The notes below the pieces were generated by a model, which did not search any database, was not told where the DNA came from, and was given only the letters and a program-made list of their open reading frames with translations. From positions 372,001-436,000 of the forward strand of contig NZ_JAMKOJ010000004.1 in assembly GCF_023700755.1 (NCBI RefSeq): a DNA stretch of 64,000 nucleotides. The letters are read 5' to 3'. Below are positions 4,916-37,940 of the stretch, piece by piece. Source of the stretch: Allorhizobium sonneratiae (lineage in GTDB: Bacteria > Pseudomonadota > Alphaproteobacteria > Rhizobiales > Rhizobiaceae). Within the stretch, counting starts at the first letter, position 1; the number at the start of each line of letters is the position of its first letter. A program made the translations under genes and the position numbers.

Positions 4916-5812
4916 ATGGCGGAAAAACTGGCACTGATCGGGGCAGGCGCCATGGGCGGCGCCATCGGCACACGGCTGGTTGAGACAGGTCATGACCTGA
5001 CGGTGTTCGATCTCGACCCGCAGAAACTGGCGGAACTGACGGCGAAAGGGGCAAAATCCGCATCGAGCGCCGCCGAGGCCGCGAAGACCGCCGATGCGGT
5101 GATCCTCAGCCTCAACACGGGAAAGATCGTCCGCGCCGCCGTCTTCGGTGAGAGCGGCGTGGCGAAGGGCGCGCGACCCGGCACGCTGATCATCGACATG
5201 TCATCCATCGATCCGGAATCGACAAAGGCGCTGGCGGCAGAGGCAAAGGACGCCGGGCTGCGCTGGGTGGACAGCCCGCTTTCCGGCGGCGCGCCAAAAG
5301 CACTGACCGGGGAACTGACGCTGATGGCCGGTGGCGAGCCGGATGCCGTGGCCGAAGCCGGGCGCGTGCTTGCGCCCCTTTACGCCAATTTCACCCCTAT
5401 GGGGCCACCGGGAGCCGGCCAAACCACCAAGCTGATCAATCAGGTGCTCTGCGCACTGAATTTCATGGCCGTGGCCGAAGCTGCGCGGCTGGCGCTCGAT
5501 GCCGGGATCGATGCGGCAAAAATCCCTGAGGCGCTCAAGGGCGGACGCGCCGACAGCGCCATTTTGCAGGAATATATGCCGCGCTATATAAGCCGGGATT
5601 ATCGCCGCACCGGGCGCATCGACAATATGGTCAAGGATTTGAACGGCGTGCAGGATCTGGCCCGGCTGACCAACACCGCCATGCCGCTGACCGCTGCCTG
5701 CGCCGAAATTCACCGGCTTTTGACCTCTGCCGGTCTTGGGGGGGAAGATCAGGCGGCGCTGATGGAATTTTTCAATGGGCCGAGACTGGAAAACGGGGAG
5801 GAAACGCCATGA
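4916..5812 (+). CDS. NAD(P)-dependent oxidoreductase, 3-hydroxyisobutyrate dehydrogenase family (second copy)
   Basis: A second beta-hydroxyacid dehydrogenase, about 298 residues, with GAGAMGGAIGTRL at the N-terminus, DSPLSGGAPKALTGEL near residue 122 and the lysine segment GQTTKLINQ near 170. Preceded by GGGAGGAGAG six bases before the ATG. It follows the SDR gene and its stop overlaps the next gene (ATGA at 5809-5812). Compared with the copy at 2054 the fold motifs are kept but the sequences differ clearly, so the two probably have different substrates (for example tartronate semialdehyde versus another 3-hydroxy acid). Assignment beyond the family is inference. Confidence 0.84.
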   Translation: MAEKLALIGAGAMGGAIGTRLVETGHDLTVFDLDPQKLAELTAKGAKSASSAAEAAKTADAVILSLNTGKIVRAAVFGESGVAKGARPGTLIIDMSSIDPESTKALAAEAKDAGLRWVDSPLSGGAPKALTGELTLMAGGEPDAVAEAGRVLAPLYANFTPMGPPGAGQTTKLINQVLCALNFMAVAEAARLALDAGIDAAKIPEALKGGRADSAILQEYMPRYISRDYRRTGRIDNMVKDLNGVQDLARLTNTAMPLTAACAEIHRLLTSAGLGGEDQAALMEFFNGPRLENGEETP

Positions 5813-6144
5813 TCACACGCTTTGCCATGTTTGAGGGAAGGGTCAAACCCGGCGAGACCGCATCCTTTCGAGATGCCGTTTTGAGCGAGCTTCTGCCGCT
5901 GTGGCAAGCCTTTCCCGGCGCGCTTGCCGTTCGCGTCAGCTTTTCGGACGCACGCGATGAGGGCGCGCCGGAGTTTCCGCTGATCCTCGCCATTGATTAT
6001 CCCGATCTGGCCACTGTGGAAAAAGCGCTGGAAAGCCCGGTCAGGGCGCAGTCCCGGGCGGTGACGCAATCGGTGGTGGCGCGGTTTTTCGAAGGCCGCA
6101 TCCATCATCACGTCACCGAATGCCATGCCCTGTCGCTGAGCTGA
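5809..6144 (+). CDS. Small protein, possible Dabb/EthD-like alpha/beta-barrel domain
   Basis: A 111-residue protein translationally coupled to the preceding reductase by an ATGA overlap. The opening ITRFAMFEGRVKPGETASFRDAV...LLPLWQAFPGALAVRV and the later PEFPLILAIDYPDLATVEKALES look like the ferredoxin-like alpha/beta barrel of Dabb or EthD proteins. These often act as dimeric accessory enzymes or isomerases in catabolic clusters. No catalytic residue can be named. It belongs to the 4137-7165 transcription unit and precedes the regulator gene by 7 bp. Confidence 0.6.
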   Translation: MITRFAMFEGRVKPGETASFRDAVLSELLPLWQAFPGALAVRVSFSDARDEGAPEFPLILAIDYPDLATVEKALESPVRAQSRAVTQSVVARFFEGRIHHHVTECHALSLS

Positions 6145-6151
6145 GGCGCTG

Positions 6152-7165
6152 ATGATCCCGCCGCGCAAACCGCCAACCATGGTCGATATCGCCCGCGAAA
6201 TGGGCGTGTCGCCGATGACGGTGTCGCGCGCCTTCAAGGCCGACAGCCTGATCAGCAAGGAAACCCGCGAAGCGGTGCTGGAGATGGCGGAGCGCCTCGG
6301 CTATGTGTTTGACAGCACGGCGGCCAATCTGCGCTCGCAGAAATCCGATTTCGTGGCCGTCACCATTCCCTCGATCAACAACGCCAATTTTGCCGATACG
6401 GTCGGTGGCCTTTCCGACCGGCTGGCGGCACACGACCTGCAAATCCTGCTGGGCTATACCAATTACGACATGCAGGAAGAAGAAAGGCTGATCGAGCAAT
6501 TGTTGCGGCGCAAGCCGCAGGCCATTGTCGTGACCGGCGGCAAACACACGGCCCGCGCCCGCCGCCTGCTGGAAACCGTGTCGATCCCGGTGATCGAGAC
6601 CTGGGATGTGCCGGCAGAGCCGATCGGCCATTATGTCGGGTTTTCCAACAGCGACGCGATCCGGCAGATGGTCGATCATTTTGTCGCCGTCGGCTATCGC
6701 AAACTGGCCTTTATCGGCGGCGATGCCGGGCGCGACACCCGCGGCAGCGAACGTCGCAGCGGCTTTATCGCCGCCCTTCAGGCGCATGGGCTTGACGATA
6801 CACGGCTGATTGGCGCCGGAACGCCGCCGATTTCCATGCGCGAAGGGGCTGCCGCCATGGCGCGACTGCTCGACACCTATCCGGATACGGAGGCGGTGAT
6901 CTGCGTCTCCGACCTCTCCGCTTTCGGCGCGCTCACCGAATGCCAGAGGCTTGGCATCGACGTGCCCGGCCGCATCGCCATCGGCGGCTTCGGCAATTAC
7001 GACCTCGGCGAGATCTGCGTACCTTCGCTCACCACCATCAACGCCTTTTCCCGCGATATCGGTGAGAAGACCGCCGAGCTGATCCTTGATATTCTGGCCG
7101 GGGAAAAGCCCGTGCGCAATATCCAGATCGTACCGGAGCTGATCTTGCGGCAGAGCAGCCGGTGA
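6152..7165 (+). CDS. LacI-family transcriptional regulator, GntR/IdnR-like
   Basis: A 337-residue LacI-type repressor. The N-terminal helix-turn-helix is visible as TMVDIAREMGVSPMTVSRAFK at residues ~9-29, followed by a hinge and a periplasmic-binding-like effector domain; LGIDVPGRIAIGGFGNYD and VPSLTTI are typical late LacI segments. It is the last gene of the idonate/gluconate unit and so probably autoregulated. The two palindromes at 1558-1573 and 4080-4095 have the GntR/IdnR operator form, so this protein is inferred to control both divergent gene pairs in response to a sugar acid such as gluconate or 5-ketogluconate. The effector is not shown by the sequence. Confidence 0.88.
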   Translation: MIPPRKPPTMVDIAREMGVSPMTVSRAFKADSLISKETREAVLEMAERLGYVFDSTAANLRSQKSDFVAVTIPSINNANFADTVGGLSDRLAAHDLQILLGYTNYDMQEEERLIEQLLRRKPQAIVVTGGKHTARARRLLETVSIPVIETWDVPAEPIGHYVGFSNSDAIRQMVDHFVAVGYRKLAFIGGDAGRDTRGSERRSGFIAALQAHGLDDTRLIGAGTPPISMREGAAAMARLLDTYPDTEAVICVSDLSAFGALTECQRLGIDVPGRIAIGGFGNYDLGEICVPSLTTINAFSRDIGEKTAELILDILAGEKPVRNIQIVPELILRQSSR

Positions 7166-7183
7166 GCCAGCCAGACTCTCACC

Positions 7184-7285
7184 CATGTCGCGTTTCATGT
7201 CCCCCAGAAATGATAGGGGACATGCGACAAAACAAAGGCTTAGGGTCAAAACTCGGCGCATGAGGCTGATAAGCCGCAACCTGCT
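7184..7285. repeat. Unnamed repeat family, copy A
   Basis: About 100 bp beginning CATGTCGCGTTT, containing the hairpin ATGTCCCC...GGGGACAT, then AAACAAAGGCTTAGGG and ending GAGGCTGATAAGCCGCAA. The same order of words recurs at 19534-19635 (see copy B). Confidence 0.6.
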
Positions 7286-7409
7286 TGATAATTTCAGTTC
7301 GATTTAAAATATGAAAATATAATAATAAGCGACTGAACCTCCTTGAATTCAAAAACCTGAAGTTTTATTTACGATATAATTAACCATTGAGAGTCGTAGA
7401 GAAACTTAA

Positions 7410-7535
7410 TAGAGCATTGTCCCGAAAAAAGTACCGAGCGGTTTTCCGTCGAAAATACGGAAACGCTCTAACTCTTTGTTTTTATGCAATTGCGGACGGA
7501 AAACCGTTTCACACTTTTCCTGGAACTGCTCTAGA
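7410..7535. repeat. RIME-type element (composite, head-to-head arms)
   Basis: Starts TAGAGCATTGTCCCGAAAAA and ends TTTTCCTGGAACTGCTCTAGA. The arms contain GCGGTTTTCCGTCG and GGACGGAAAACCGTTTCACA in opposite orientation around AACTCTTTGTTTTTATGCA. It looks like two RIME halves joined head to head. Confidence 0.72.
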
Positions 7536-7567
7536 GCCGCATATTCAAATGGATAAGGACTGACGCA

Positions 7568-8422
7568 TTGAGAATCATTTTCCACGCTGGCACTCCTAAA
7601 ACAGGAACAACAGCGCTGCAAAACTTTCTCCATAACCATCGAGAGCACCTTCTGGAACATGGCGTGCTTTATCCGAGAGCAGGTATTGCCCAACCTCCTG
7701 CCTACAAGCACCAATGGATCGTCGGCAACTTGATGAAAGACACGGCTGACGATTTTTCCACAATGATGGACGCAGTATTTGCCGAAGCACGCCCGGACAC
7801 CCATACGATCCTCCTGTCAACCGAAGGACTGTTTCATCGCTGGTGGGATTATTCACCGGCAGGCTTACAGGCACTCGCGACACTGGCTGCACGCTTTCCT
7901 GTTGAGCTTTGGGCATTTTTTCGTGAGCCGGTCGCTTTTACGCGGAGCTTTTACATTCAGATGCTGAAGAATCCTCACGGGCTTGGCCCGTGCTATGGAC
8001 TGGATGTATCTTTGCAGGAGCTTCTTGATGAGCCACGCTTTGCAATTCACCTCGATTATATCGGCTATATTAGAGCCGTCGAAGCCGTTTTGGGCGCAGG
8101 AAAGGTACGGCCCTTTCCCTATCATGGACATACAGTCGCAGATATTTTGCAAGCGCTCGCAATTGCTGATCTTGATCCTGAGAAAAGCCAGGAGAACCGA
8201 ACTGTCGGAGAATTCGGGGTGGCACTGCTTCGCCAGATCAATCGCCAGCAACTGGACGTCGAGCAGAAATGGCGCGCCGTTAAATTGATTAATGATCTAG
8301 ACACTTTGATAGATGGCTATAAAACCCCGTTACAGCTTGATCAAACCGTGCTTGACCGTATACATGAACTGGCAGCAGACAGCATGGAGTGTCTTCGCCG
8401 TGAATACGGCATATTGTTATAA
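7568..8422 (+). CDS. Sulfotransferase-like P-loop protein
   Basis: A 284-residue protein opening IIFHAGTPKTGTTALQNFL, which fits the 5'-phosphosulfate-binding loop of PAPS-dependent sulfotransferases; FFREPVAFTRSFYIQML later resembles their 3'-phosphate-binding segment (R-P-x-x-x-x-x-S). It would transfer sulfate to a carbohydrate or surface polymer, but the acceptor is unknown. The start is TTG at 7568 with AAGGAC eight bases upstream; no in-frame ATG is better placed. Flanks are AT-rich and codon use is more relaxed than in neighbours, suggesting acquisition by transfer. Together with the glycosyltransferase-like gene 160 bp downstream it may form a surface-polysaccharide decoration pair. 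Confidence 0.65.
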   Translation: MRIIFHAGTPKTGTTALQNFLHNHREHLLEHGVLYPRAGIAQPPAYKHQWIVGNLMKDTADDFSTMMDAVFAEARPDTHTILLSTEGLFHRWWDYSPAGLQALATLAARFPVELWAFFREPVAFTRSFYIQMLKNPHGLGPCYGLDVSLQELLDEPRFAIHLDYIGYIRAVEAVLGAGKVRPFPYHGHTVADILQALAIADLDPEKSQENRTVGEFGVALLRQINRQQLDVEQKWRAVKLINDLDTLIDGYKTPLQLDQTVLDRIHELAADSMECLRREYGILL

Positions 8423-8581
8423 AACAAATCGATGATGTAGAATTTTTATTACTGGCATTATCAACCGAAAGGTGTGTGGAATTTTTCAAGAAAAACATGC
8501 GGTAAAATGAAAAATTACCACTATTATTTTACAATAAAATATAGAGAATATCTAAAGGGCATCGACATTTAAAGGCGCCAT

Positions 8582-9412
8582 ATGAGTTTGATATATTCCT
8601 GTGTTGTCGACGGAGCGCCAAAATTCCAGGACCAAGCGCAGATATTTTTGCGCAGCCTTCTCGCAACAGGTGTTGAGCCGAACCATATTCATATGCACCT
8701 GACCACTCATGCCCGCCAGACCCATGGCCTTGCGGAGGCGATGGCCGAATACGGGATCGTGTTGCATGATCTGAAACCCTTTCTTGACGGCGCTTACTGC
8801 AACAAACTGGTACAACTCGATACTTTACCTTTGGGCAGTGCGGATTGCGTGGCGCTATGCGATACGGATCTTGCCTTTCTTCACTCCCTGGAAAGCGAGG
8901 CCAGTTCAAGGGTCGTGCGTGCCAAGCCCGTGGATTTACCCAATCCACCGATTGCCTTTCTTGAACGATCCCGTGAAATCTGCGGCCTCAATGGCAACCA
9001 GCCGGTTGTTCGCACCAGTTGCGAGGACGCGCCGACCTGGATTTCCAATTGCAATGGCGGCTTATATCTATTGCCTTCCATCCTGGCTCCCACAATCGCC
9101 GCATCATGGAAAAAACACGCAACCACCCTTCACGCTACCCATAACGCTCTGGAAGGGTATGCACACCACATCGACCAGATCTCTTTCGCTATGGCCATGC
9201 TCGATCTGGGACTGGAGATTGATCCACTGATGATTGAAGATAATTTCCCCCTGCATCTGTCCGATCGTTTTGCGCCCGATGCTGAGATCAATCCGCGTGT
9301 TCTGCATTACCATTGGCTTCACGATGGTGGTGACCGCCTCCTGGAAACTGGCCATGCCAGCCTGGATCGCGCTGTTCGCGCGGTCAATCTTCGACTGAAG
9401 GTCAACCGTTAG
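8582..9412 (+). CDS. Glycosyltransferase-like protein (GT-A fold features)
   Basis: 276 residues. CVALCDTDLAFL around residues 96-107 has the DxD-type metal/nucleotide-sugar motif of GT-A glycosyltransferases. NCNGGLYLLP, HIDQISFAMAMLDLG and VLHYHWLHD are arranged as in family-8-like and related bacterial glycosyltransferases. No signal peptide or membrane segment is seen, so a cytoplasmic enzyme is expected. The gene is preceded by about 160 bp of very AT-rich DNA (8423-8581), and an AGAGCATTTC word resembling a RIME end begins directly at its stop. Function is inferred from motifs only; the family cannot be fixed without a profile search. Confidence 0.6.
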   Translation: MSLIYSCVVDGAPKFQDQAQIFLRSLLATGVEPNHIHMHLTTHARQTHGLAEAMAEYGIVLHDLKPFLDGAYCNKLVQLDTLPLGSADCVALCDTDLAFLHSLESEASSRVVRAKPVDLPNPPIAFLERSREICGLNGNQPVVRTSCEDAPTWISNCNGGLYLLPSILAPTIAASWKKHATTLHATHNALEGYAHHIDQISFAMAMLDLGLEIDPLMIEDNFPLHLSDRFAPDAEINPRVLHYHWLHDGGDRLLETGHASLDRAVRAVNLRLKVNR

Positions 9413-9467
9413 AGCATTTCATGAACGTCAAAAACATTCTCACGGAGCGCTGAAAACTCCGTCAGCC

Positions 9468-10331
9468 TCAGATTGAAATTTGGGGGTTGTTCTGCTCCAA
9501 ATCTGGTGAAAACCTTTTGCCACAAAAGGCATGCGCCAGCGGGTGATCCGCCTGCTTGAGGCCGTCTATGACATTGAAATGATGGGTGCCGCTTTCGACC
9601 ACAAGGCGGGTGGCGGCCCCCTTCAGCCGCCATGCCTCCGCCAGAAAGGCCGCCTGACGCAGAAATTCCGGCCGCTCCTGCCCGCCCACCCAGGCAATCA
9701 CCTCCGCACGTCCCTTCGGCGCATGAAGCGCCGGGCTTTCCGTCAGCGCCTCCTCTTCAGAGAGCATCAGCCGCTCATTCATGCTGTTCAGCCGCAAGGG
9801 CCGCAGATCATGCAGACCGCTGATCGACACGACCCGCTCGATCCGGTTGACGACAGCATCGGCAAGCGGCGTGTCGTCGCAGACCATGCGCGTCACCAGA
9901 TGCCCGCCCGCCGAATGCCCGGCAAGCCGGATCGGCCCCTCAACCTGAGAGGCCGCGACGGTGATGGCCTGACCGATAGCCTGTGTCATGGCCGAAATCC
10001 GCGCCTCAGGCGCCAGCGGATAGCTCGGCAAAGCCACGCTCCAGCCCTTTGCCAGCGCCGCAGCGGCAAAAGCAGACCAGACCGATTTGTCGAAAGCCAG
10101 CCAGTATCCGCCATGGACAAAGACGGCAAGACCGTGAGAGACGCCTTGCGGCATCAACAGGTCCATGACCATGCGGGGGGCCTCACCATAGGCAAGATCG
10201 GCGCGATGCGTGGTTTCGGCGCGAAACCGGGCGGCCTCCTCGGCCCAGCGTTGCGGATAGTCCACCGCCCCTTCGATATAGGCGCCATTGGCAAAGGCGT
10301 CTTCCCAGTCGATACCGCTTAAACCGATCAT
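9468..10331 (-). CDS. Alpha/beta hydrolase, probable arylformamidase (N-formylkynurenine hydrolase)
   Basis: A 287-residue serine hydrolase with the oxyanion motif HGGYW near residue 75 and nucleophile elbow GHSAGG near 139, plus a late GTHHFNVIDGL carrying a candidate catalytic His. This is the layout of the animal/yeast-type kynurenine formamidase family, which hydrolyses N-formylkynurenine to kynurenine and formate. The ATG at 10331 has GGGAG nearby; upstream in-frame starts lack one. Tryptophan 2,3-dioxygenase and kynureninase are encoded just downstream of the divergent regulator, which supports this role. The promoter region is shared with the MarR gene at 10449. Confidence 0.8.
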   Translation of the reverse strand: MIGLSGIDWEDAFANGAYIEGAVDYPQRWAEEAARFRAETTHRADLAYGEAPRMVMDLLMPQGVSHGLAVFVHGGYWLAFDKSVWSAFAAAALAKGWSVALPSYPLAPEARISAMTQAIGQAITVAASQVEGPIRLAGHSAGGHLVTRMVCDDTPLADAVVNRIERVVSISGLHDLRPLRLNSMNERLMLSEEEALTESPALHAPKGRAEVIAWVGGQERPEFLRQAAFLAEAWRLKGAATRLVVESGTHHFNVIDGLKQADHPLAHAFCGKRFSPDLEQNNPQISI

Positions 10332-10369
10332 GGCTTTCTCCCATCCGCAATGGATCATAGCCATACTGC

Positions 10370-10395
10370 TCAAGCTTCAATAGTTCAAGCTTGAA
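10370..10395. promoter_or_regulatory. Putative MarR operator region
   Basis: TCAAGCTT occurs at 10370-10377 and again at 10385-10392, and the second copy lies in the perfect 12-bp palindrome TTCAAGCTTGAA (10384-10395). The site lies between the divergent formamidase and MarR genes, as expected for an autoregulated MarR repressor. Confidence 0.65.
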
Positions 10396-10448
10396 ATAAA
10401 TTCTGACCCGGATTATGGTCTCGCCATCATGTCGAGCAGGAGAGCAGC

Positions 10449-10949
10449 ATGAAGGCCGAACCGAAGACCGTCAGGAACGCTGGCCAGAACATTGGCCAGG
10501 ATGCAGGCAGCCTGTCGAAAAACCGGCTGCGGCTGTGGCTCAAACTGTTGAAATCGGCTGGTCTGGTGGAGGATGAAATCCGCCGTAGGCTGCGGCAGGA
10601 TTTTTCAACGACGCTGCCGCGCTTCGATGTGATGTCGGCATTGTCGCGTGCGCCGGGCGGGCTCAAGATGAAGGAAATTTCCCATCTTCTGCGCGTTTCC
10701 AACGGCAATATCACCGGCATTGTCGACAAGCTCTGCGAGGATGGTTTCGTGCTGCGGGTGACACCGCCAGACGACCGGCGCACACAGATCATCGTCCTCA
10801 CACCCAAGGGCCGCAGCGAATTCGACCGGCAGGCAAAAGCCCATGAAGGCTGGATCGACGCGATCCTCGGCGGCCTCGATGCCGATGATGTCGATGGCAT
10901 GATCCGCCGGCTCGACCATCTGACCCATACGCTGGAAGAGGGTGACTGA
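10449..10949 (+). CDS. MarR-family transcriptional regulator
   Basis: A 166-residue winged-helix protein. MKEISHLLRVSNGNITGIVDKLCEDGFV forms the recognition helix region, and the wing carries PPDDRRTQIIVLTPKG, the MarR DxRR signature. It is divergent from the arylformamidase gene and lies ahead of the CoA ligase, tryptophan dioxygenase and kynureninase genes. Control of tryptophan/anthranilate degradation with an aromatic or acyl-CoA ligand is the natural inference, in line with MarR regulators of aromatic-CoA pathways. The likely operator is the TTCAAGCTTGAA palindrome at 10384-10395. The ATG at 10449 follows GCAGGAGAGCAGC. Confidence 0.88.
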   Translation: MKAEPKTVRNAGQNIGQDAGSLSKNRLRLWLKLLKSAGLVEDEIRRRLRQDFSTTLPRFDVMSALSRAPGGLKMKEISHLLRVSNGNITGIVDKLCEDGFVLRVTPPDDRRTQIIVLTPKGRSEFDRQAKAHEGWIDAILGGLDADDVDGMIRRLDHLTHTLEEGD

Positions 10950-11078
10950 GACCGCTCACATCCGGGAGATGACTGACCCATAGAGCCGACTTTGAAAAGC
11001 CCGTCAGAGGCTTGTGCGGCGCGCCTATCATCAAGAATAGCCTGCTATAAATCAGGCATTTGAAGGGGAACTGAAACC

Positions 11079-12698
11079 ATGTTGCGACCGACCGGTCATG
11101 AAGACAGATTTACCCGCGACAACCTGCCGCCACCCGACATGTGGCCGGATCTTCTTCTGTCGCAATTTTCCTATCCCGACCGGCTGAACGCCGCGGTGGA
11201 ACTGACCGACCGCATGGTCGAGAAGGGTTTCGGCGACCGGATTGCCCTGATCGGCAACGGGCGCAAGCGCACCTATAAGGAGCTAACCGACTGGACCAAT
11301 CGGCTTGCCCATGCGCTGGTCGAGGATCTCGGGGTCAAATCCGGCAACCGCGTGCTGATCCGCTCGGCCAACAATCCGGCCATGGTCGCCTGCTGGCTGG
11401 CCGCCACCAAGGTGGGCGCGGTGGTGATCAACACCATGCCGATGCTGCGGGCGGGCGAGCTGAAAAAATATATCGACAAGGCCGAGATCAGCCATGCCCT
11501 GTGCGACACCCGATTGATGGAGGAGATGCAGGCGGCGGCAGACGGCAGCCACTTTCTCAAAACCCTGGTCGGCTTTGACGGCACCAGCAATCACGATGCC
11601 GAGTTGGACCGGCTGGCGCTGGAAAAGCCTGTGAACTTTACCGCCGCCGATACGGCGCAGGACGATGTGGCGCTGATCGGCTTCACCTCCGGCTCCACCG
11701 GCGATCCCAAGGCGACGCTGCATTTTCACCGCGACCTGCTGATCATTGCCGATGGCTATGCCAGGGAAGTGCTGAAGGTAACACCGGAGGATGTTTTTGT
11801 CGGCTCGCCGCCGCTGGCTTTTACCTTCGGCCTTGGCGGGCTTGCCATCTTTCCCCTGCGTTTTGGCGCCACCGCCACGCTGCTGGAAACCGCCTCACCG
11901 CCGAACATGGTGGAGATCATCCAGAAATATCGCGCCACCGTCTGCTTCACCGCCCCCACCGCCTATCGCGCCATGATGCGGGCCATGGATGCGGGCGCCG
12001 ATCTTTCCTCGCTGCGCGCTGCCGTCTCGGCCGGCGAAACCCTGCCCGGTCCGGTCTATCGCGACTGGATGGAAAAGACCGGCAAGCCGATGCTGGACGG
12101 CATCGGCGCCACCGAAATGCTGCATATCTTCATCACCAACCGTTTCGAGGACCACAGGCCCGGCTGCACCGGCAGGCCGGTTGCAGGCTATGAGGCCAAG
12201 GTGGTCGGTTCCGATGGTAAAGACCTGCCGCCCGGAACGCCGGGCCATCTGGCCGTGCGCGGGCCGATCGGCTGCCGCTATCTGCGCGGCGAACGCCAGA
12301 GCGGCTATGTCCAAAACGGCTGGAACATCACCGGCGACACCTTCATTCAGGATGAGGACGGCTATTTCCACTTTGCCGCCCGCAGCGACGACATGATCGT
12401 CTCGGCCGGCTACAATATTGCCGGGCCGGAGGTGGAGGCCGCCCTTCTCGCCCATGCCGATGTCGCCGAATGCGCGGTGATCGGCGTGGCAGACGCCGAT
12501 CGCGGCAGCATCGTCCAGGCTTTCGTCGTGTTGAAGGGCGATAAATCCGGCAGTCCCGATATGGCGCAGCGGTTACAGGACCATGTGAAGGCGACCATCG
12601 CACCTTATAAATATCCGCGCTCAATCGTTTTCGTCCCTGCTTTGCCGAAAACCGAAAGCGGCAAGATTCAACGTTTCAAGCTCAGGAGTGTCGCGTGA
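11079..12698 (+). CDS. AMP-forming acyl-CoA ligase, probable 2-aminobenzoate-CoA ligase
   Basis: A 539-residue adenylate-forming enzyme. Seen: the phosphate loop [15 protein letters not shown] around 205-219, the A5 motif [10 protein letters not shown], the A7 motif [24 protein letters not shown] and the late lysine in [11 protein letters not shown]. The short aromatic-acid ligase pattern (benzoate-CoA ligase family) plus its position ahead of tryptophan dioxygenase and kynureninase point to activation of anthranilate made by the kynurenine pathway. Its stop overlaps the next start (GTGA at 12695-12698), so it is in the same operon. Anthraniloyl-CoA monooxygenase, the expected next enzyme, is not in the window. 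Another aromatic acid is possible. Confidence 0.75.
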
Positions 12699-13534
12699 GC
12701 CAGGAGGTCTATAATCCCGGTGCCGAGGGGGCGAAGCTGAATTTCAGCGACGCCATGTCCTATGGCGATTATCTGCATCTCGATGGGATTTTAAGTCAGC
12801 AGCATCCGTTAAGCCCCGCCCATGACGAGATGCTGTTCATCATCCAGCACCAGACCAGCGAATTGTGGATGAAGCTGATCATTCATGAAATGATGGCCGC
12901 ACGCGACATGCTGAAACGCGGCGACACCGCCAACATGTTCAAGATGCTGGCGCGTGTGGCGCGGATTTTCGAGCAGCTCAACAGCGCCTGGGATGTGCTG
13001 CGCACCATGACGCCCGCCGATTATACGCGGTTTCGCCAGAGCCTTGGCCCCTCCTCCGGCTTTCAGTCCTATCAATACCGGCTAATCGAATATCTGCTCG
13101 GCAACCGCAATCCTACCATGCTGAAGCCGCATGAGCATGTGCCCGAGGTCCACGCCCTGCTGAAGGCCGAGCTTGCCCGGCCGAGCTTTTATGACGAGGT
13201 GGTGCGGCTGCTGTTCATCACCCTCGACGGTTCCGATGCCGCCATGCCCGCGCCGGAGCTTGAGGCGCCGCACAGCGCCCATCCCGAGATCATGGCCCGC
13301 TGGAAGATCGTCTATCAGGATATCGACCGTTACTGGATGCTCTATGAACTGGGCGAGAAACTGGTCGATCTGGAGGATTATTTCCGCCGCTGGCGCTTCA
13401 ATCACGTCACCACGGTGGAGCGCGTCATCGGCTTCAAGCGCGGCACCGGCGGCACGTCCGGCGTGAATTATCTGCGCCGGATGCTGGGCGTGGAACTGTT
13501 TCCCGAACTTTGGCAATTGCGTGGAGAGCTTTGA
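12695..13534 (+). CDS. kynA: Tryptophan 2,3-dioxygenase
   Basis: A 279-residue haem dioxygenase that opens the indole ring of L-tryptophan to N-formylkynurenine. Hallmarks: [37 protein letters not shown] (distal His and substrate contacts) and, near the C-terminus, [22 protein letters not shown] with the proximal haem-ligand His and the substrate-carboxylate loop. Length is normal for bacterial enzymes. The start is GTG, overlapping the ligase stop. The kynureninase gene begins two bases after its stop, so the two genes are tightly linked. Confidence 0.95.
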
Positions 13535-19838: not shown

Positions 19839-19888
19839 AAGGCCGGATCAAAGCGGCAATATTCCTTGCCAAATCGATAGAATCCGAT

Positions 19889-19933
19889 ATTGTCACGTTA
19901 CTAAGGCATTTTTCCAAAAAATATCGTGACAAT
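19889..19933. promoter_or_regulatory. Inverted repeat upstream of orphan repA
   Basis: ATTGTCACG (19889-19897) and CGTGACAAT (19925-19933) form a 9-bp inverted repeat ending 20 bp before the repA start at 19954. The same word ATTGTCACG occurs at 35372-35380 upstream of the second repA. A RepA autoregulatory operator is the simplest reading, but it is inference. Confidence 0.55.
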
Positions 19934-19953: not shown

Positions 19954-21126
19954 ATGACAATGACCTCGCTGGACTCCGTCTCAAGCTTTGCGGATATCAT
20001 TCTCGATCAGGGGGATGAGATTTCCTCCAAGCTCGACCTCCTGCGCATCGAGCGCTTTCCCCCCAATGCGCAAAAGACCCTGCGCCAGTTTTCTCTGGCG
20101 GAGGTCGCGGATTTTATCGGCGTGTCGCAAAGTTATCTGAAGAAGCTGCATCTGTCCGGCAAGGGGGTCGAACCGAGCGTGACCTCCACCGGACGACGCT
20201 TCTATACCGCGTCCCAGATGGATGATCTGCGCGCCCTGCTCGACCGGGTGCCGCATCGCCGCGACGGTGAAAAGCTTCAGGTGATTGCCGTCGTCAATTT
20301 CAAGGGCGGCTCGGGCAAAACGACGACCTCGGCCCATCTGGCGCAGTATCTGGCGCTGCGCGGCTTTCGCACGCTGGCGGTCGATCTCGACCCGCAGGCC
20401 TCGCTGACTGCCCTTTACGGCATTCAGCCGGAGCTGGACAACAAGCCGTCCTTTTACGAGGCCATCCGCTATGATGGTGAGCGGCGTCCGGTGTCCGAGG
20501 TGATCCAGCCGACCAATTTTCCCAATCTCGATATCGTACCCGCCAATCTCGAATTGCAGGAATATGAATATGAGACGCCGCTGGCCATGCAGCGCCGCGA
20601 CAGCAATGAGGGCAAGCTGTTCTACACCCGCATCGGCGCAAGCCTTGCCGAAGTCGAAGACCGCTATGATGTGGTGGTGATCGACTGCCCGCCGCAGCTT
20701 GGCTATCTCACACTGACGGCGCTGACGGCGGCCACCTCGGTGCTGATCACCGTGCATCCGCAAATGCTCGACATCATGTCCATGTCGCAATTCCTGTTGA
20801 TGCTGGGCGGCATTTTGAAAAGCGTCGAAGGTGCCGGGGTCAATGTCTCGCTCGACTGGTTCCGCTATCTGATCACCCGTTACGAGCCGATGGACATTCC
20901 CCAGCAGCAGATGGTTGGCTTCATGCAGTCGATGTTTGCCCGGCAGATGATGAAGAACCCGATGGTCAAATCCACGGCGGTCTCCGATGCGGGTCTGACC
21001 AAGCAGACGCTCTATGAAGTCGACCGCGCGCAATTTACCCCCTCCACCTATGACCGCGCCCGCGAAGCCATGGATGCCGTCAACGCCGAAGTGGTCGATC
21101 TCATTTTACAGGCCTGGGGGCGCTGA
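19954..21126 (+). CDS. RepA-type ParA partition ATPase (orphan repAB pair)
   Basis: A 390-residue member of the RepA family of repABC replicons. An N-terminal helix-turn-helix region (FSLAEVADFIGVSQSYLKKL, ~46-65) is followed by the deviant Walker A KGGSGKTTT (~117-125), the A' motif DLDPQAS (~144-150) and the Walker B VVVIDCPPQ. In repABC systems RepA partitions the plasmid with RepB and represses its own operon. RepB follows after 98 bp, but no repC or antisense-RNA region comes after it. The pair is distinct in sequence from the repA at 35611. It could stabilise the replicon, be a relic of a merged plasmid, or act as a decoy. Confidence 0.9.
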   Translation: MTMTSLDSVSSFADIILDQGDEISSKLDLLRIERFPPNAQKTLRQFSLAEVADFIGVSQSYLKKLHLSGKGVEPSVTSTGRRFYTASQMDDLRALLDRVPHRRDGEKLQVIAVVNFKGGSGKTTTSAHLAQYLALRGFRTLAVDLDPQASLTALYGIQPELDNKPSFYEAIRYDGERRPVSEVIQPTNFPNLDIVPANLELQEYEYETPLAMQRRDSNEGKLFYTRIGASLAEVEDRYDVVVIDCPPQLGYLTLTALTAATSVLITVHPQMLDIMSMSQFLLMLGGILKSVEGAGVNVSLDWFRYLITRYEPMDIPQQQMVGFMQSMFARQMMKNPMVKSTAVSDAGLTKQTLYEVDRAQFTPSTYDRAREAMDAVNAEVVDLILQAWGR

Positions 21127-21224
21127 GATGGGAAACCACGTTTCAGGGGCTTTATTGTCAGCCGTACAAATGGCCAGTTTCACCAACAATTCCATAGGCT
21201 TGTTCTTTCGGGGAGATCAGTGAC

Positions 21225-22208
21225 ATGGCGCGCAAGGATGTGTTTGCCAATATCAATTCCATGCAGCCCGCCGCCGAGCGGCGCAGCTCGCCCGGTTACG
21301 CCACCCGCGGTGCCAGCCGCTCCATGGTCAACTCCTTGAGCGAGTTGGCGGAAAAGGCCGCACTGGCCGATCAGGCCGTGGCGGGCGAAAAAGTGGTGGA
21401 GATCGATCCGGCGCTGATCGACCCCTCCTTCATCACTGAGCGGATGGAAGAGGATGAGGCCGCCTTTGCCGAACTGGTCGAGGCCATTCGCGAGCGTGGA
21501 CAGGATACGCCGGTGCTGTTGCGCCCGCACCCGGATGAGGAAGGCCGCTTCCAGACCGTGTTCGGCCATCGCCGCGTGCGGGTGGCGAAACATCTGCAAA
21601 GACCGGTCAAGGCCGTGGTCAAGGATGTGTCGGATGTCGATCATATCATTGCCCAGGGGCAGGAAAACTCCGCCCGCGAAAATCTGTCCTTCATCGAGCG
21701 TGCCTGTTTTGCCCAGAACCTGATCGCGCTGGGCCATGAGCGGCGCGTGGTGCAGCTGGCGCTTTCCGTCGATGCGCCGATGCTGACGCGGATGCTGTCG
21801 GTGGCAGGCCGCATTCCCGCCGATGTCATTGCCGCCATCGGCCCGGCCAAGAGCGTGGGCCGCGACCGCTGGCTGGATCTTGTACAGGAAATCGAGCCGC
21901 CCAAGGCGCTGGCGCTGGCGCGCGAGATCATCCTTGCCGACGGTTTTCAGGATGCGCCTTCCGAAGCCCGCTTCGACAGATTGGCCGGTGAGCTGAAAAA
22001 AGCCCGCCGCCCGGCAAAAAAGACCAGCCCGGTAGGCGAGTGGGTGTCGCAGGATGCAGCCCTCAAGGCGGAATACAAGACCAGCGGCCGCAGTTTTTCA
22101 CTGGCGCTGAAATCGCGCGATGCCGCCCGTTTCGGCGCCTATCTCGCCGACAATCTTGAGCGTCTGCACGAGGAATTCAAACGCGCCCGTCAGGACGAGG
22201 AGGGCTGA
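21225..22208 (+). CDS. RepB-type ParB partition protein (orphan repAB pair)
   Basis: A 327-residue ParB/RepB protein with the family box GHRRVRVAKHL (~114) and QENSARENLSFIERACFAQ (~146-164), followed by a helix-turn-helix region (ALSVDAPMLTRMLSVAGRIP). Such proteins bind the parS centromere and recruit RepA. The ATG has GGGGAGATCAGTGAC upstream. A hairpin terminator at 22242 closes the unit, so repC has been lost or was never present here. No GTTCCCCGCGGGGAAC-like palindrome was found nearby, so its own centromere, if any, is not identified. Confidence 0.9.
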   Translation: MARKDVFANINSMQPAAERRSSPGYATRGASRSMVNSLSELAEKAALADQAVAGEKVVEIDPALIDPSFITERMEEDEAAFAELVEAIRERGQDTPVLLRPHPDEEGRFQTVFGHRRVRVAKHLQRPVKAVVKDVSDVDHIIAQGQENSARENLSFIERACFAQNLIALGHERRVVQLALSVDAPMLTRMLSVAGRIPADVIAAIGPAKSVGRDRWLDLVQEIEPPKALALAREIILADGFQDAPSEARFDRLAGELKKARRPAKKTSPVGEWVSQDAALKAEYKTSGRSFSLALKSRDAARFGAYLADNLERLHEEFKRARQDEEG

Positions 22209-22241
22209 GCGAAGCCCGCCATTCACCCTCCCCTTCATCAC

Positions 22242-22273
22242 AAGCCCGCTTCACTGAAGCGGGCTTTTTTTAT
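22242..22273 (+). terminator. Intrinsic terminator after orphan repB
   Basis: AAGCCCGCTTCA, a very short loop, then TGAAGCGGGCTT running into a T-tract: a 12-bp GC-rich stem ending in seven or more T residues, starting 33 bp after the repB stop. Confidence 0.92.
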
Positions 22274-22501
22274 GGGAACGCGCCAGCAATGCCTTAATCA
22301 GGTCTTTCTCATGGAACAATTCGGGCGAGATTGTGTTGACCCCATCTCCAGCATGATCTGCCCGGCCTGCTTCTCTTTGGCTCCGGCCTCTTCCTTCCGG
22401 ACTGAACCGGCTCCCGTCACGATCATGCGTCCATACGAAAAGGTGGCGATATGCCGGGCAATACCCGTGACCCGACATCTCCTCACCCTCAGGAGTGGTC
22501 G

Positions 22502-22639
22502 ATGAATAAGACGTTTTTCTGGCTGGCGCTTGTCGCCGTGGCTGTCCTTGTCCTCCTTCTCTTCTACAGTCTGCGGGATGCAGATCCCCCCTCACCCCAA
22601 CAGCAACCCTCACCCCACGCTCTGGAGCAAAGCCAGTAA
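22502..22639 (+). CDS. Small single-span membrane protein
   Basis: A 45-residue protein starting at the ATG at 22502 with AGGAG six bases upstream. After MNKTFF comes one hydrophobic segment (WLALVAVAVLVLLLFY), then a short charged turn (SLRDAD) and a Pro/Gln/Ser-rich tail. It ends 11 bp before the glucose dehydrogenase gene, so the two are probably co-transcribed. No family is recognised. An assembly or regulatory partner of the membrane dehydrogenase is possible, but only position suggests it. Confidence 0.55.
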   Translation: MNKTFFWLALVAVAVLVLLLFYSLRDADPPSPQQQPSPHALEQSQ

Positions 22640-22650
22640 GGAGATGAATC

Positions 22651-24987
22651 GTGGCTGTTACCATAACCTCTATCTTGTTCGCCCTGATCGGTGTTTTTCT
22701 CACAGGCGGCGGCCTCTGGCTGGTGCTTCTGGGCGGAAGCTGGTTTTATCTTTTTGCCGGTCTCATGTTCCTGCTGACAGGCTTTCTGCTCTATCGTCGC
22801 CGCTCATCGGCTTTTCCCGTTTATGCGTTGCTGGTGATCGTCTCGCTTGCCTGGGCGTTATGGGAAGTGGGGCTGGACTGGTGGCAGCTTGCGCCGCGCG
22901 GCGGCGTGATCATTCTGCTCGGTCTTTGGCTTCTCACGCCCTGGATATGCCGTCCTCTCAGCCGTGCTGAACACCGCTATCGCCTGCCCTGGTCGCTGGC
23001 CGGAGCCAACCTGATTGCGATTATTGTTGCGGTCGTGTCGATGGTCGTGCCCTCCAACGATCTTTCCGGTTCGCTGCCGACGCTTGCTGCCACGGCCTCC
23101 CCTGCCTATGGCGGTGATGTGCCGGATGGTGAATGGCACCAATATGGCCGCACACCTTTTGGCCAACGCTATTCTCCGCTGACCCAGATCAACACCACCA
23201 ATGTCGATCACCTCAAGGTCGCCTGGGAATATGAAACCGGCGATAAGAAACAGCCGGACGATGTTGGCGAAACCACCTATGAGATTACGCCGTTGAAAAT
23301 CGGCGATACGCTTTATCTGTGCACACCGCATAACTGGGCCATTGCGCTGGATGCGCGAACCGGCAAACAGAAATGGAAATTCGATCCGCATGTCGGTTTC
23401 AACAATCAGCGTCAGCACCAGACCTGCCGCGGTGTCAGCTATTATCGTGACACGGCCGCAACACCCGGTCAGTCCTGCGCGCAGCGCATCTATCTGCCCA
23501 CCTCCGATGCACGGCTGATTGCGCTGGATGCCGAAACCGGCGTGGTCTGCGAAGGCTTTGCCGACAATGGCGCGCTGCATCTCGAACAGCATATGAAATA
23601 CAAGCCGAAGGGCTATTATTACTCAACCTCGCCGCCGGTCATTGTCGGGCATGAGATCATCATTGGCGGCTCCGTCAACGACAATTACTCGCTTCAGGAA
23701 CAGTCCGGCGTCATCCGTGCCTTTGATGTCGATACGGGCCGATTGCTGTGGAACTGGGATGCGGGCAATCCTGAAAAGACTGCGCCGCTTGGCCCGGGCG
23801 AAACCTATACGACCAATTCGCCGAACAGCTGGTCGGTGTTCAGCGTCGATCAGCAATTGGGCCTCGTCTATATCCCGCTCGGCAATCAGGTGCCTGACCA
23901 GCTCGGCATGAACCGCAGCGCCAATGTGGAGAAATATTCCTCCTCCATCGTCGCCCTCGACATCAACACCGGGCAGGTGCGCTGGGTGCAGCAATTCGTC
24001 CATCACGATCTGTGGGATATGGATGTGCCAGCCCAGCCGGTGCTGTTCAACCTGACGAAAAAGGACGGCACCGTCATTCCCGCCCTCGTCGCGCCAACCA
24101 AGCAGGGTGATATTTACGTGCTCGACCGGCGCACCGGCCAGCCGATCTTTCCCGTCAAGGAGCTTCCCGCCCCCGGCGGCGCAATTCAGGGCGATCACAC
24201 CGCCCCCACCCAGCCGAAATCCAGCATCAGCTTTTCCCCGCCAAAGCTGACGGGCAAAAACATGTGGGGCATCACGCTGTTCGACCAGCTTGCCTGCCGC
24301 ATCGAGTTTCACCGGTATCGCTATGAGGGGCGTTATACGCCGCCCTCGCTTCAGGGCAGCATCATCTATCCCGGCAATTTCGGCACCTTCAACTGGGGCA
24401 GTGTGGCGGTCGATCCTGAGCGGCAGGTCATGTTTGGCATGCCGACCTATCTCGCCTTCATTTCTCGCCTGGTGCCGGCGGCTGACATGCCGGCGAAAAA
24501 CGCCAGCGACAAGGCCAGCGAACACGGGCTGAACCGCAATACCGGCGCAGCTTATGGCGTCTATCTCGGTCCCTTCCTCAGCCCGCTGAAAATTCCCTGC
24601 CAGGCGCCGCCATGGGGCTATGTTGCAGGTGTCGATCTCACCACCGGCAAGATCGTCTACAAGCACAAGAACGGCACCGTCTACGACATGACGCCGCTGC
24701 CGCTGCCCTTCAAGGTGGGTGTGCCCGGTATTGGCGGACCGATCATCACCAAGGGCGGGGTCGCCTTCCTTGCCGCCGCCGTCGATGATTATCTGCGCGC
24801 CTATGATGTCACCACCGGCAAGCAGATCTGGCAGGCGCGCCTGCCCGCCGGCGGACAGGCAACGCCCATGACCTATAAGGCCAGCGACAACAAGCAGTAT
24901 GTGGTGATCGTGGCTGGCGGCCATGGCTCGATCGGTACCAAGCCGGGCGATTATGTCATTGCCTATCGTCTGCCCGACCAGACCTGA
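22651..24987 (+). CDS. gcd: Membrane-bound PQQ-dependent glucose dehydrogenase
   Basis: A 778-residue quinoprotein. Five hydrophobic segments occupy roughly residues 1-140 (the membrane anchor of Gcd-type enzymes). A periplasmic eight-bladed propeller follows, with DGEWHQYGRTPFGQRYSPLTQIN at its start and VQQFVHHDLWDMDVPAQPVL in the middle, a family hallmark near the active-site Asp and ubiquinone pathway. It oxidises glucose (and some other aldoses) to the lactone, passing electrons to ubiquinone. GTG start at 22651 with AAGGAG upstream. PQQ biosynthesis genes are not in the window. Gluconate formed could feed the idonate/gluconate regulon at 0.6-7 kb. Quinate dehydrogenase is a related but less likely alternative. 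Confidence 0.9.
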   Translation: MAVTITSILFALIGVFLTGGGLWLVLLGGSWFYLFAGLMFLLTGFLLYRRRSSAFPVYALLVIVSLAWALWEVGLDWWQLAPRGGVIILLGLWLLTPWICRPLSRAEHRYRLPWSLAGANLIAIIVAVVSMVVPSNDLSGSLPTLAATASPAYGGDVPDGEWHQYGRTPFGQRYSPLTQINTTNVDHLKVAWEYETGDKKQPDDVGETTYEITPLKIGDTLYLCTPHNWAIALDARTGKQKWKFDPHVGFNNQRQHQTCRGVSYYRDTAATPGQSCAQRIYLPTSDARLIALDAETGVVCEGFADNGALHLEQHMKYKPKGYYYSTSPPVIVGHEIIIGGSVNDNYSLQEQSGVIRAFDVDTGRLLWNWDAGNPEKTAPLGPGETYTTNSPNSWSVFSVDQQLGLVYIPLGNQVPDQLGMNRSANVEKYSSSIVALDINTGQVRWVQQFVHHDLWDMDVPAQPVLFNLTKKDGTVIPALVAPTKQGDIYVLDRRTGQPIFPVKELPAPGGAIQGDHTAPTQPKSSISFSPPKLTGKNMWGITLFDQLACRIEFHRYRYEGRYTPPSLQGSIIYPGNFGTFNWGSVAVDPERQVMFGMPTYLAFISRLVPAADMPAKNASDKASEHGLNRNTGAAYGVYLGPFLSPLKIPCQAPPWGYVAGVDLTTGKIVYKHKNGTVYDMTPLPLPFKVGVPGIGGPIITKGGVAFLAAAVDDYLRAYDVTTGKQIWQARLPAGGQATPMTYKASDNKQYVVIVAGGHGSIGTKPGDYVIAYRLPDQT

Positions 24988-35400: not shown

Positions 35401-35416
35401 GTTCCCCGCGGGGAAC
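35401..35416. promoter_or_regulatory. parS: parS centromere site of the repABC replicon
   Basis: GTTCCCCGCGGGGAAC is a perfect 16-bp palindrome fitting the repABC parS pattern GTT-N4-GC-N4-AAC. It lies 195 bp upstream of the repA start, one of the positions known for such sites, and is the likely RepB binding site. Only this one copy was noticed by eye. Confidence 0.88.
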
Positions 35417-35610: not shown

Positions 35611-36786
35611 GTGAATCGCAGCCTCAGCAGCCAGGACTTCATGCAAAGCTTTTCGACCAAGCTCGAAAACGCCCTGCAAAACCTGTCCCTTGCGCAATAT
35701 CCGCCGGATGCGCGCCGCCAGATGCGCCTGTTTTCCTCAACCGAGGTCGCAAGCCTGCTGGACGTGTCTGAGGCCTATATCCGTCAGATCGTGCAGAAGG
35801 AAAATAGCCCGACACCCGAAATCCTCGGCAATGGCCGGCGGATGTATTCGCTGGAGCAGATCCTGGAATTCCGGATGATGCTGGCTGCCAATGGCCGCAA
35901 GAAATGGATCAATCCGCGCCGAACGGAAGGGGAGGCCTGCCAGATCCTCGCCATCACCAATTTCAAAGGCGGCTCCAGCAAAACCTCGACCACCATTCAC
36001 CTTGGCCATTATCTGGCCCTGAAGGGCTATCGGGTGCTGGCCGTTGATCTCGACCCACAGGCCTCACTCACCAGCCTGCATGGCGCGCTTGCCGATTTCG
36101 ATCCGCGCAAGGACGACACTTTCTATGCCGCCATCCGCTTCGACAATCCGCGTCCCACCGCCGAAATCATTCACAAGACCCATATTCCAGGCTTCGACGT
36201 GATCTGCGCCGGTCTGGAACTGACCGAATTTGAAACCGCCGTGGCGCTCGAAATGCGCAAGAACGGCACCTCGTTTCTCCTACGGATTTCTATGGCTTTG
36301 GAGCAAATATGTGAGGATTACGACATCATTTTAATGGATTCGGCGCCATCGCTGAATTTTTTGACGCTCGCCTCGCTCACGGCGGCAACCGGCGTGCTCA
36401 TTCCCGTTCCAGCCCATATGCTCGACGTCGACTCGACGGGAAAATTCCTAGAACTTGCAGCATCTTACATGCAGATCCTCAATGAAATCGGTGCCAGTGT
36501 CTCCTGGGATTTCGCCCGGTTTCTGATCACCAAATACGAGCCGAACGACCATCCTCAGGCCAATATGGCAGCCCTGATGCGGCAGGTTTTCGGCGAAAAT
36601 CTGCTTCTCAACATGGTCACAAAATCCACGGCCATCGCGGATGCCTTAACATGGAAGCAAAGCCTCTATGAGGTGCAGCGTTCACGGTTCTCATCGCCCA
36701 AGACCTATGACAGGGCGATCGAATCTCTGAACGCGGCGAATGAGGAAATAGAAAAGCTGATCTGGTCAGCATGGAGGCGGGAATGA
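35611..36786 (+). CDS. repA: RepA partition ATPase of the repABC operon
   Basis: A 391-residue ParA-type protein. The N-terminal helix-turn-helix region (FSSTEVASLLDVSEAYIRQI, ~41-60) precedes the deviant Walker A KGGSSKTST (~119-127), in which the usual GK glycine is Ser, as occurs in some RepA proteins. The A' motif is DLDPQAS and the Walker B IILMDSAP. RepA with RepB segregates the replicon and represses the operon. The start is GTG at 35611 with AAGGA eight bases upstream. Its stop overlaps the repB ATG (ATGA, 36783-36786). It differs considerably from the orphan RepA at 19954, so the two are not a recent duplication. Confidence 0.95.
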   Translation: MNRSLSSQDFMQSFSTKLENALQNLSLAQYPPDARRQMRLFSSTEVASLLDVSEAYIRQIVQKENSPTPEILGNGRRMYSLEQILEFRMMLAANGRKKWINPRRTEGEACQILAITNFKGGSSKTSTTIHLGHYLALKGYRVLAVDLDPQASLTSLHGALADFDPRKDDTFYAAIRFDNPRPTAEIIHKTHIPGFDVICAGLELTEFETAVALEMRKNGTSFLLRISMALEQICEDYDIILMDSAPSLNFLTLASLTAATGVLIPVPAHMLDVDSTGKFLELAASYMQILNEIGASVSWDFARFLITKYEPNDHPQANMAALMRQVFGENLLLNMVTKSTAIADALTWKQSLYEVQRSRFSSPKTYDRAIESLNAANEEIEKLIWSAWRRE

Positions 36787-37787
36787 GCAGAAAGGACTCA
36801 CGCGGAATGTTTGCCAATGTGCTGGGACAAATGCAGCAGTCTGAACAGGCTGCGCATGCGCCCGCACAATCGCAATCGCCGCATCTGAAAAAGGTGGCGG
36901 ACGGTATTCGCCAGATGAAGGAGCGGGGCGACATTCTCGACCGGCTGCTGAAGGAGGGCGACCGCATTGTCGAGCTCGATCCGGCCATCATCGCCCCTTC
37001 GGCGATCCGCGACCGGTTCGACAGCGGCTATGACGATGCCGCCCTCGACGAGATCCGCCAGTCGATGCGGGCGCAGGGCCAGATCGTTCCCGGTCTGGTG
37101 CGTCCGGTCGAGGGTGGCTCCATGCCCTTCCAGATCGTTTATGGCCGGCGCAGGCTCGCCGTTGCCAGAGAATTGGGGCTTGCCTTCCGCGCCATCGTCA
37201 AGGAACTCAGCGACGAGCAGGCGATCATCTATCAGGGTGAGGAAAACACCAATCGCGATGATCTCACCTTTATCGAGAAATGTTCTTTTGCCGCTGCCCA
37301 GGAACAGGCCGGTTTTCGCCGCGATGTCATCTGCGCGTCTCTCTCGACCGGCAAATCGCATGTCTCGGAAATGATTCGCATTGCCGCTTCGGTGCCGGCC
37401 GAGATCCTGCATCTGATCGGCAGGAGCCCGCAGACCGGGCGGCGGCGCTGGATTGAATTTGTCGAAACCTGGCTCCAGTCCGAGGACGGCATGGACAAGA
37501 TACGCCACGTCCTCGATAACGCCAGTGCAAGAGATGGCGCCAAGGACGTCGATCGATTTGCGCTGGCGCTGCACGCGCTGCGCACGGCAAAGCCCGCCAC
37601 ACAAGGCCCGGCCAGCGCCAGCCGCGACATTCGCACCGGCGGTCTCGTCATCGGCACACTCGCGCATGGCAAAGCCGGCTCGAAAATCAGTTTCAGCAAA
37701 GCGGTTTCAGCGGATTTCGTCGAGTTTCTCGGCGAAAAACTGCCGGAACTGCATCGTCAATTTTGTGAGGAAAAAGAGAAAGGCTAA
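36783..37787 (+). CDS. repB: RepB partition protein of the repABC operon
   Basis: A 334-residue ParB-family centromere-binding protein. Box GRRRLAVARELG (~121-132), GEENTNRDDLTFIEKCSFA (~152-170) and the helix-turn-helix that follows (DVICASLSTGKSHVSEMIRIAASVP) are characteristic. It should bind the palindrome at 35401-35416 and work with RepA. The ATG at 36783 overlaps the repA stop and is preceded by GGAGGCGGG; an alternative start at 36771 lies inside repA. The gene ends about 150 bp before repC, leaving room for the antisense RNA. Confidence 0.95.
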   Translation: MSRKDSRGMFANVLGQMQQSEQAAHAPAQSQSPHLKKVADGIRQMKERGDILDRLLKEGDRIVELDPAIIAPSAIRDRFDSGYDDAALDEIRQSMRAQGQIVPGLVRPVEGGSMPFQIVYGRRRLAVARELGLAFRAIVKELSDEQAIIYQGEENTNRDDLTFIEKCSFAAAQEQAGFRRDVICASLSTGKSHVSEMIRIAASVPAEILHLIGRSPQTGRRRWIEFVETWLQSEDGMDKIRHVLDNASARDGAKDVDRFALALHALRTAKPATQGPASASRDIRTGGLVIGTLAHGKAGSKISFSKAVSADFVEFLGEKLPELHRQFCEEKEKG

Positions 37788-37794
37788 GCGCAAA

Positions 37795-37846: not shown

Positions 37847-37940
37847 AACTCAAGAATCGCATTTCCACGAATCATAGTCAAGAGTCTTTGGCACCGTTTT
37901 GGTGAGCGGATTTCTTTTGCCTGAGGACAGGTGAAAGACA

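Follow-up and report, generated by a model that had tools for sequence, protein, structure and literature searches.

A repA-repB pair without repC (the orphan pair) lies on the same contig as a complete repABC operon, and the sequence comparisons point to a stand-alone partition module, consisting of RepA, RepB and a parS site, that derives from a Ti-type repABC operon (probability about 60%). Both genes are intact, a conserved site linked to this repAB clade and a conserved upstream region are present, and repC has been lost relative to 18 relatives. Most probably the pair still functions as an additional partition system, autoregulated and with its own specificity; we infer its DNA binding, its expression and its partition activity.

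Gene content of the orphan pair, its replicon and its relatives

The window, that is, the whole stretch of 64,000 nucleotides that was analyzed, corresponds to positions 372001-436000 of contig C33 (487,673 bases) in a 4.55-Mb draft genome of 41 contigs. Because C33 carries none of the 45 tRNA matches of the genome and has its own repABC operon, it is most likely a megaplasmid. RepB matches to PF07506 were found at four places in the genome (C11, two on C33, and C38), and RepC-family matches also at four (C11, the main operon of C33, C38 and C8). Since the C11 and C38 stretches hold repA, repB and repC together, the orphan is the only one of the four repAB pairs in the genome without its own repC. 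The repC on C8 (L037, positions 6895-8115 of G000:C8:1-12000) has no repAB within the 12 kb examined, and its 34.6-kb contig, which carries the sole PF03135 (VirB4/TrbE) match of the genome, is perhaps a small transferable plasmid. This gene was rejected as the cognate repC: it matches the RepC proteins of the relatives over just 106 amino acids at 38%, and the 14-bp word described below is absent from C8.

The orphan proteins belong to the repABC ParA and ParB families, respectively, and RepB also scored above the cut-offs of PF07506 (88.5 bits) and PF02195. Neither gene has an internal stop. The preliminary description had assigned the genes at 19954 and 21225 to the RepA and RepB families, placed a strong terminator at 22242 after repB, and reported a complete, divergent repABC set at 35611-39674, with no repC and no antisense-RNA gap at the orphan pair. 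All of these claims agree with our results: both family scores are far above the cut-offs, the terminator has paired arms and a T run (Table 1), and the main operon is complete, with only 40% (RepA) and 31% (RepB) identity between its proteins and those of the orphan. A PQQ-dependent dehydrogenase-like gene (22651-24987) adjoins the orphan pair and has matches in several genus members on megabase-size, chromosome-looking contigs.

Table 1. Features of the orphan pair and of the main repABC operon (window coordinates)
Feature	Position	Strand	Basis or remark
Putative promoter of the orphan pair (TTGCCA, 16 bp, TATTGT)	19866-19893	+	Assigned by eye
Inverted repeat ATTGTCACG...CGTGACAAT, putative RepA operator	19889-19933		9-bp perfect arms; overlaps the -10 region
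Orphan repA (ParA-type ATPase, 390 aa)	19954-21126	+	TIGR03453, 591.5 bits (cut-off, 348.45)
parS candidate TTGTCAGCCGTACA	21155-21168	+	Exact in 17 of 18 distinct repA-repB gaps of relatives
Orphan repB (ParB-type, 327 aa)	21225-22208	+	TIGR03454, 348.7 bits (cut-off, 201.5)
Intrinsic terminator after orphan repB	22242-22271	+	12-bp arms, 22242-22266; seven-T run, 22265-22271
Perfect palindrome GTTCCCCGCGGGGAAC, parS candidate of the main repABC	35401-35416		Only GTT-N4-GC-N4-AAC match in the window
Main repA	35611-36786	+	TIGR03453, 513.1 bits
Main repB (overlaps repA)	36771-37787	+	TIGR03454, 295.3 bits
Main-operon ctRNA antisense RNA	37790-37836	-	RF00489, 69.3 bits (gathering score, 50)
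Main-operon S-element	37876-37943	+	RF00490, 82 bits (gathering score, 47)
Main repC (577 aa)	37941-39674	+	PF03428, PF11800, NF040974

No repC was found beside the orphan pair with family profiles or by tblastn of the Peteryoungia RepC (E 1e-3); the tblastn search matched the window at the main operon only. The ctRNA (RF00489) and S-element (RF00490) models detected both elements in the main operon above the gathering score but gave nothing beside the orphan genes, even when E values up to 1 were allowed. Compared with a complete repABC replicon, the pair is missing a repC with its origin downstream of repB as well as the ctRNA. A repC fossil 3' of orphan repB was likewise not detected, either by tblastn at E 1e-3 or by blastn of the 452 bp past the repB stop (22209-22660) against the repB-repC gaps of four relatives.

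The main operon is of a different kind. A search of the other 62 genus genomes at E 1e-80 gave no match to its RepB, which among plasmids is most similar to that of Rhizobium rhizoryzae (65%), where two identical copies of GTTCCCCGCGGGGAAC are located upstream of the related repB (L056). The main RepA, RepB and palindrome are unlike those of the orphan, and the two modules therefore differ in all three parts. The main RepC is longer than that of Peteryoungia (405 amino acids), with a long extra stretch between two conserved ends.

The closest matches of orphan RepA and RepB in the plasmid collection were complete repABC operons. A repC gene is annotated in the records of five of these relatives (Peteryoungia, RAC06, R. 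rosettiformans, WL3 and S. fredii) and was detected by tblastn in a sixth, RAC02, which has no annotation. Three Ti-type records, Peteryoungia desertarenae NZ_CP058351, Agrobacterium sp. RAC06 NZ_CP016500 and R. rosettiformans NZ_CP032406, encode RepA 86 to 88% and RepB 64 to 72% identical to the orphan proteins and share with the orphan pair the 14-mer 56 to 57 positions before repB and the upstream repeat. However, all three have repC and ctRNA, and two of them an S-element above the gathering score, while the orphan has none of these. The orphan pair also has no traI/trb genes upstream. Genes for an acyl-homoserine-lactone synthase and trb genes were found upstream of repABC in three of the four relatives for which that side was seen; Peteryoungia had recQ there instead. 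Following repB, a ctRNA was detected at five of six relatives' loci (L009-L012 and L023) and an S-element at four; L036, the C11 operon of the same genome, has neither RNA element. The 708-kb Peteryoungia plasmid matched window positions 13000-37000 only over a repA stretch (megablast, best 20 of 114 records), so that at the nucleotide level this region gives no support for a common origin of the two plasmids as a whole.

More broadly, 27 plasmid records encode RepA 80 to 90% identical to that of the orphan, and 18 other genomes among the 63 of the genus encode RepB with 59 to 72% identity, in each case with repC beside it (tblastn). The orphan is the one repC-less locus of the 19 clade members in the genus, and, because all 18 same-clade loci have repC, the comparison indicates that it is the orphan copy that lost the gene.

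Candidate partition site, upstream region and protein constraint

The preliminary description also stated that no parS-type palindrome accompanies the pair. This is correct for the GTT-N4-GC-N4-AAC palindrome, which was not found by the orphan pair when the window was scanned, but the repA-repB gap contains the 14-bp word TTGTCAGCCGTACA, an imperfect palindrome that does not fit the published parS consensus and that we regard as a candidate for the cognate parS of orphan RepB. The remainder of the relatives' gaps has diverged, TTGTCAGCCGTACA being the conserved part; the one inexact gap of the 18 is that of L013, with one base different. The 18 gaps exclude L015 (the orphan's own copy), L023 (G031), which has a 65-bp gap without TTGTCAGCCGTACA, and L034, which has a RepB only 47 to 48% identical and a 39-bp gap without TTGTCAGCCGTACA. 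The orphan kept the distance between TTGTCAGCCGTACA and repB; on the repA side its gap exceeds those of the relatives by 15 bp, and the remainder has diverged.

Over the 63 genomes of the genus, exact copies of TTGTCAGCCGTACA occurred at 44 places in 21 genomes, compared with none for a reversed control word. The last base was located 56 to 57 positions before a clade repB start at 18 of these places (57 in the orphan), 12 were 1 to 2.5 kb past repB, approximately at the end of repC, and 14 were elsewhere. Four of the last group (G008:C2:235978, G024:C2:105826, G025:C2:392393 and G017:C15:124720) are single copies 143 to 404 kb from repABC on the same contigs and are possibly remote extra centromere sites. 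All 19 genomes of the RepB clade had the word, versus 2 of the 44 others (G036 and G049), and the resulting Fisher P value of 3e-14 overstates the case because TTGTCAGCCGTACA was defined from these same loci (18 of 19 by construction) and the genomes are related. Independent support for TTGTCAGCCGTACA as a candidate site comes from the scarcity of the word in other contexts, its 26 occurrences outside the gap and the absence of any match to the control. Such scarcity, copies beyond repC and a constant spacing from repB are as predicted for a RepB site. In the genome of the orphan itself, TTGTCAGCCGTACA matched one place with up to one mismatch and the reversed control word matched two; a lone match is therefore not rare in itself, and it is the position that counts. 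The relevant passages of PMC4231840 locate the par sites of pTiR10 and pTiC58 between repA and repB, those of pTiR10 being bound by RepB; we liken them to TTGTCAGCCGTACA by location alone and claim no sequence identity. A complete repABC operon of the orphan clade whose gap lacks the 14-mer (L039, positions 9904-13494 of G031:C1:3600000-3619999) lies on a 3.69-Mb contig and is possibly a plasmid integrated in the chromosome.

Additionally, an inverted repeat upstream of repA had been overlooked in the preliminary description. The cores of ATTGTCACG and CGTGACAAT are conserved in the relatives, as are CTTGYC and GAATC blocks, in an upstream alignment of 20 sequences; seven rows are absent from it, namely, L015, L016, L017 and L020 (own copy or duplicates), L031 (cut off by the contig start), L034 (distant) and L014 (insufficient upstream sequence). 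According to PMC4492784, the mapped RepA operators of another repABC host have imperfect palindromic symmetry, and three of the four overlap the promoter; by analogy, the repeat is a putative RepA operator. The promoter- and operator-like region as a whole seems to have been kept in the orphan.

The median pN/pS between the orphan and 19 relatives was 0.150 for repA and 0.377 for repB, compared with 0.120 and 0.297 among the relatives, and these pairwise values average over divergence that is perhaps mostly older than the loss of repC, with synonymous sites near saturation. The 19 loci were taken from 26 with both genes after removal of L015 (own copy), L016, L017 and L020 (duplicates), L031 (truncated), L034 (distant) and L013, although the latter is no more distant than some loci that were kept. 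The orphan retained 270 of 280 clade-invariant residues in RepA (61 of 66 and 209 of 214 in its two parts) and 120 of 129 in RepB. In leave-one-out comparisons (n = 19), it kept a smaller fraction than any relative in the N-terminal part of RepA (0.924 versus a lowest relative of 0.957) and in the N terminus of RepB (0.893 versus 0.966), equaled the lowest relative in the ATPase part of RepA (0.977), and fell inside the range of the relatives in the other three parts of RepB. Its RepA end branch in the tree (0.14) is as long as that of the longest relative, L028. Slightly raised pN/pS together with fewer invariant residues is compatible with relaxed constraint; the orphan proteins are constrained, but perhaps less so than in complete operons.

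Other repC-less repAB pairs in the genus

We surveyed the best 150 RepB places and the best 150 RepC places over the 63 genomes, and 11 of the former had none of the latter within 3 kb downstream. Four of these apparent orphans end too close to a contig end (G048:C543, G006:C8, G006:C33 and G021:C262), and two are adjoined by a divergent RepC (G005:C5 and G004:C2). The five repC-less pairs left in these lists are the orphan described here, G051:C11 with G015:C31, and G051:C5 with G015:C20. In the RepA tree, whose deep part contains long branches according to a warning of the program, they occupy three branches, and on each there is a relative with complete repABC (p42f, pRgalR602b and the clade of the orphan). 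For both G051 pairs, a complete repAB-repC set is present on the same contig.

The p42f-type pairs (L049, G051:C11:22000-41000, 7416-9660; L057, G015:C31:27000-44000, 7279-9478) are 99.5% identical in RepA and 92.8% in RepB, and share a perfect palindrome, GTCGTCCGCGGACGAC, which occurs twice, once upstream of repA and once within repB. The pairs related to pRgalR602b (L060, G051:C5:56000-71000, 7167-9421; L061, G015:C20:188000-203000, 5557-7817) are 97.3% identical in RepA and 91.9% in RepB. The L049 repAB adjoins the same RND-MFP pump pair as the orphan in our window. The pump was rejected as a clue: the G051:C11 repAB beside it belongs to another RepA lineage, and the pump occurs without repAB in 16-kb stretches of G016:C10 and G050:C21. 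Its position beside repC-less repAB may reflect either chance or a shared hot spot.

Proposed function, alternatives and published systems

If the orphan pair is a partition module, RepA, with RepB as corepressor, would bind the inverted repeat upstream of repA and limit transcription, while RepB would bind TTGTCAGCCGTACA in the repA-repB gap and form a partition complex there, which nucleoid-associated RepA-ATP would move. The megaplasmid would thereby gain a second centromere, separated by 14.2 kb from the parS-like palindrome that accompanies the main repABC. Replication would depend on the main RepC, and the two partition modules should act side by side because RepA, RepB and the site all differ. 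The pair may have arrived by plasmid fusion or module exchange, after which repC would have been lost with its origin and ctRNA.

Three options had been raised in the preliminary description, of which we favor an additional partition system serving this replicon, because a parS candidate, an operator-like repeat, intact open reading frames and low pN/pS have been kept. As the origin of the pair, a cointegrate is supported: its nearest relatives are complete repABC operons, quorum-sensing and transfer genes lie upstream in three of the four for which that side was seen, and repC is missing in the clade solely here; against it, the single PF03135 transfer-ATPase match of the genome is not on C33. 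An incompatibility decoy is possible and would be a likely side effect of the pair. Alternatively, the pair may be a decaying remnant of another repABC plasmid that joined the megaplasmid; loss of repC would have come first, and the two remaining genes would now be neutral and bound to erode. The orphan being the sole repC-less member of 19 in its clade, its slightly higher pN/pS, its shortage of invariant residues in two of six protein parts, and a composite Martelella plasmid that may show a degenerating second module (PMC5613091) all fit such decay, but both reading frames, the candidate site, the operator-like repeat and the site-to-repB distance have been kept, and we consider it possible but rather unlikely.

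That the megaplasmid keeps the pair in order to destabilize incoming plasmids of the Ti-type repABC group through its RepA, RepB and site appears improbable to us. The text of PMC2783167 names RepA, RepB and parS each as incompatibility determinants in repABC plasmids, and candidate targets exist in the 27 records and 18 genus genomes described above; however, RepB is at most 72% identical to its relatives, which makes cross-recognition unsure, and incompatibility follows from any active partition module without special selection. It is harder still to credit an assembly misjoin that removed repC or joined two plasmids in one contig. The genome is indeed a draft in 41 contigs, but the window contains no N, the 452 bp past the repB stop match none of the four relatives' repB-repC gaps, and the family search gave no spare cognate repC on other contigs, those of C11 and C38 having their own repAB and that of C8 being distant.

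Incomplete operons of this type are not new. "Faulty operons" with only repAB beside complete ones were reported in 2009 by Castillo-Ramirez et al. (PMC2783167), whose relevant passages count repA and repB without repC in five of six, and coexistence with complete operons in four of six. The orphan, with repA and repB, no repC and complete repABC operons in the genome, is a well-preserved example of this published kind, for which, compared with what those passages describe, parS, operator and constraint were looked at here. Plasmids with several partition systems are described in PMC13245405 (2026) as common in PLSDB, two type I systems being the commonest combination, and only one of the two systems of SCP1 as critical for stability. 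SCP1, however, is a linear Streptomyces plasmid whose two parS sites differ at one position according to the same source, whereas the orphan and main candidates are unlike each other. The 3parS locus of pAMI4 is, like the orphan pair, an extra partition locus, there about 11.5 kb from the repABC operon, but it consists of extra sites for the same RepB, whereas the orphan is a second RepAB (PMC9040568). That 2022 paper, which deals with parS sites of repABC replicons, states that its authors knew of no other described repABC replicon with an additional partition locus, and a figure legend of the paper marks repC as absent from some of its replicons. Our searches of the open-license literature listed no experiments on a repAB pair lacking repC in the role of a second partition system.

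A broader, more doubtful proposal is that repAB-parS modules lacking repC, rather than being broken operons, represent a recurring, selected second centromere system of repABC megaplasmids that also provides immunity against plasmids of the donor group. If this were true, a replicon would obtain an orthogonal partition complex, and such modules would be those found here on three RepA branches. The locus joins two lines of work, as a "faulty" operon that seemingly holds every partition part, its own candidate site included, and it offers a defined case for whether megaplasmids may recruit foreign partition modules and with what effect on compatibility.
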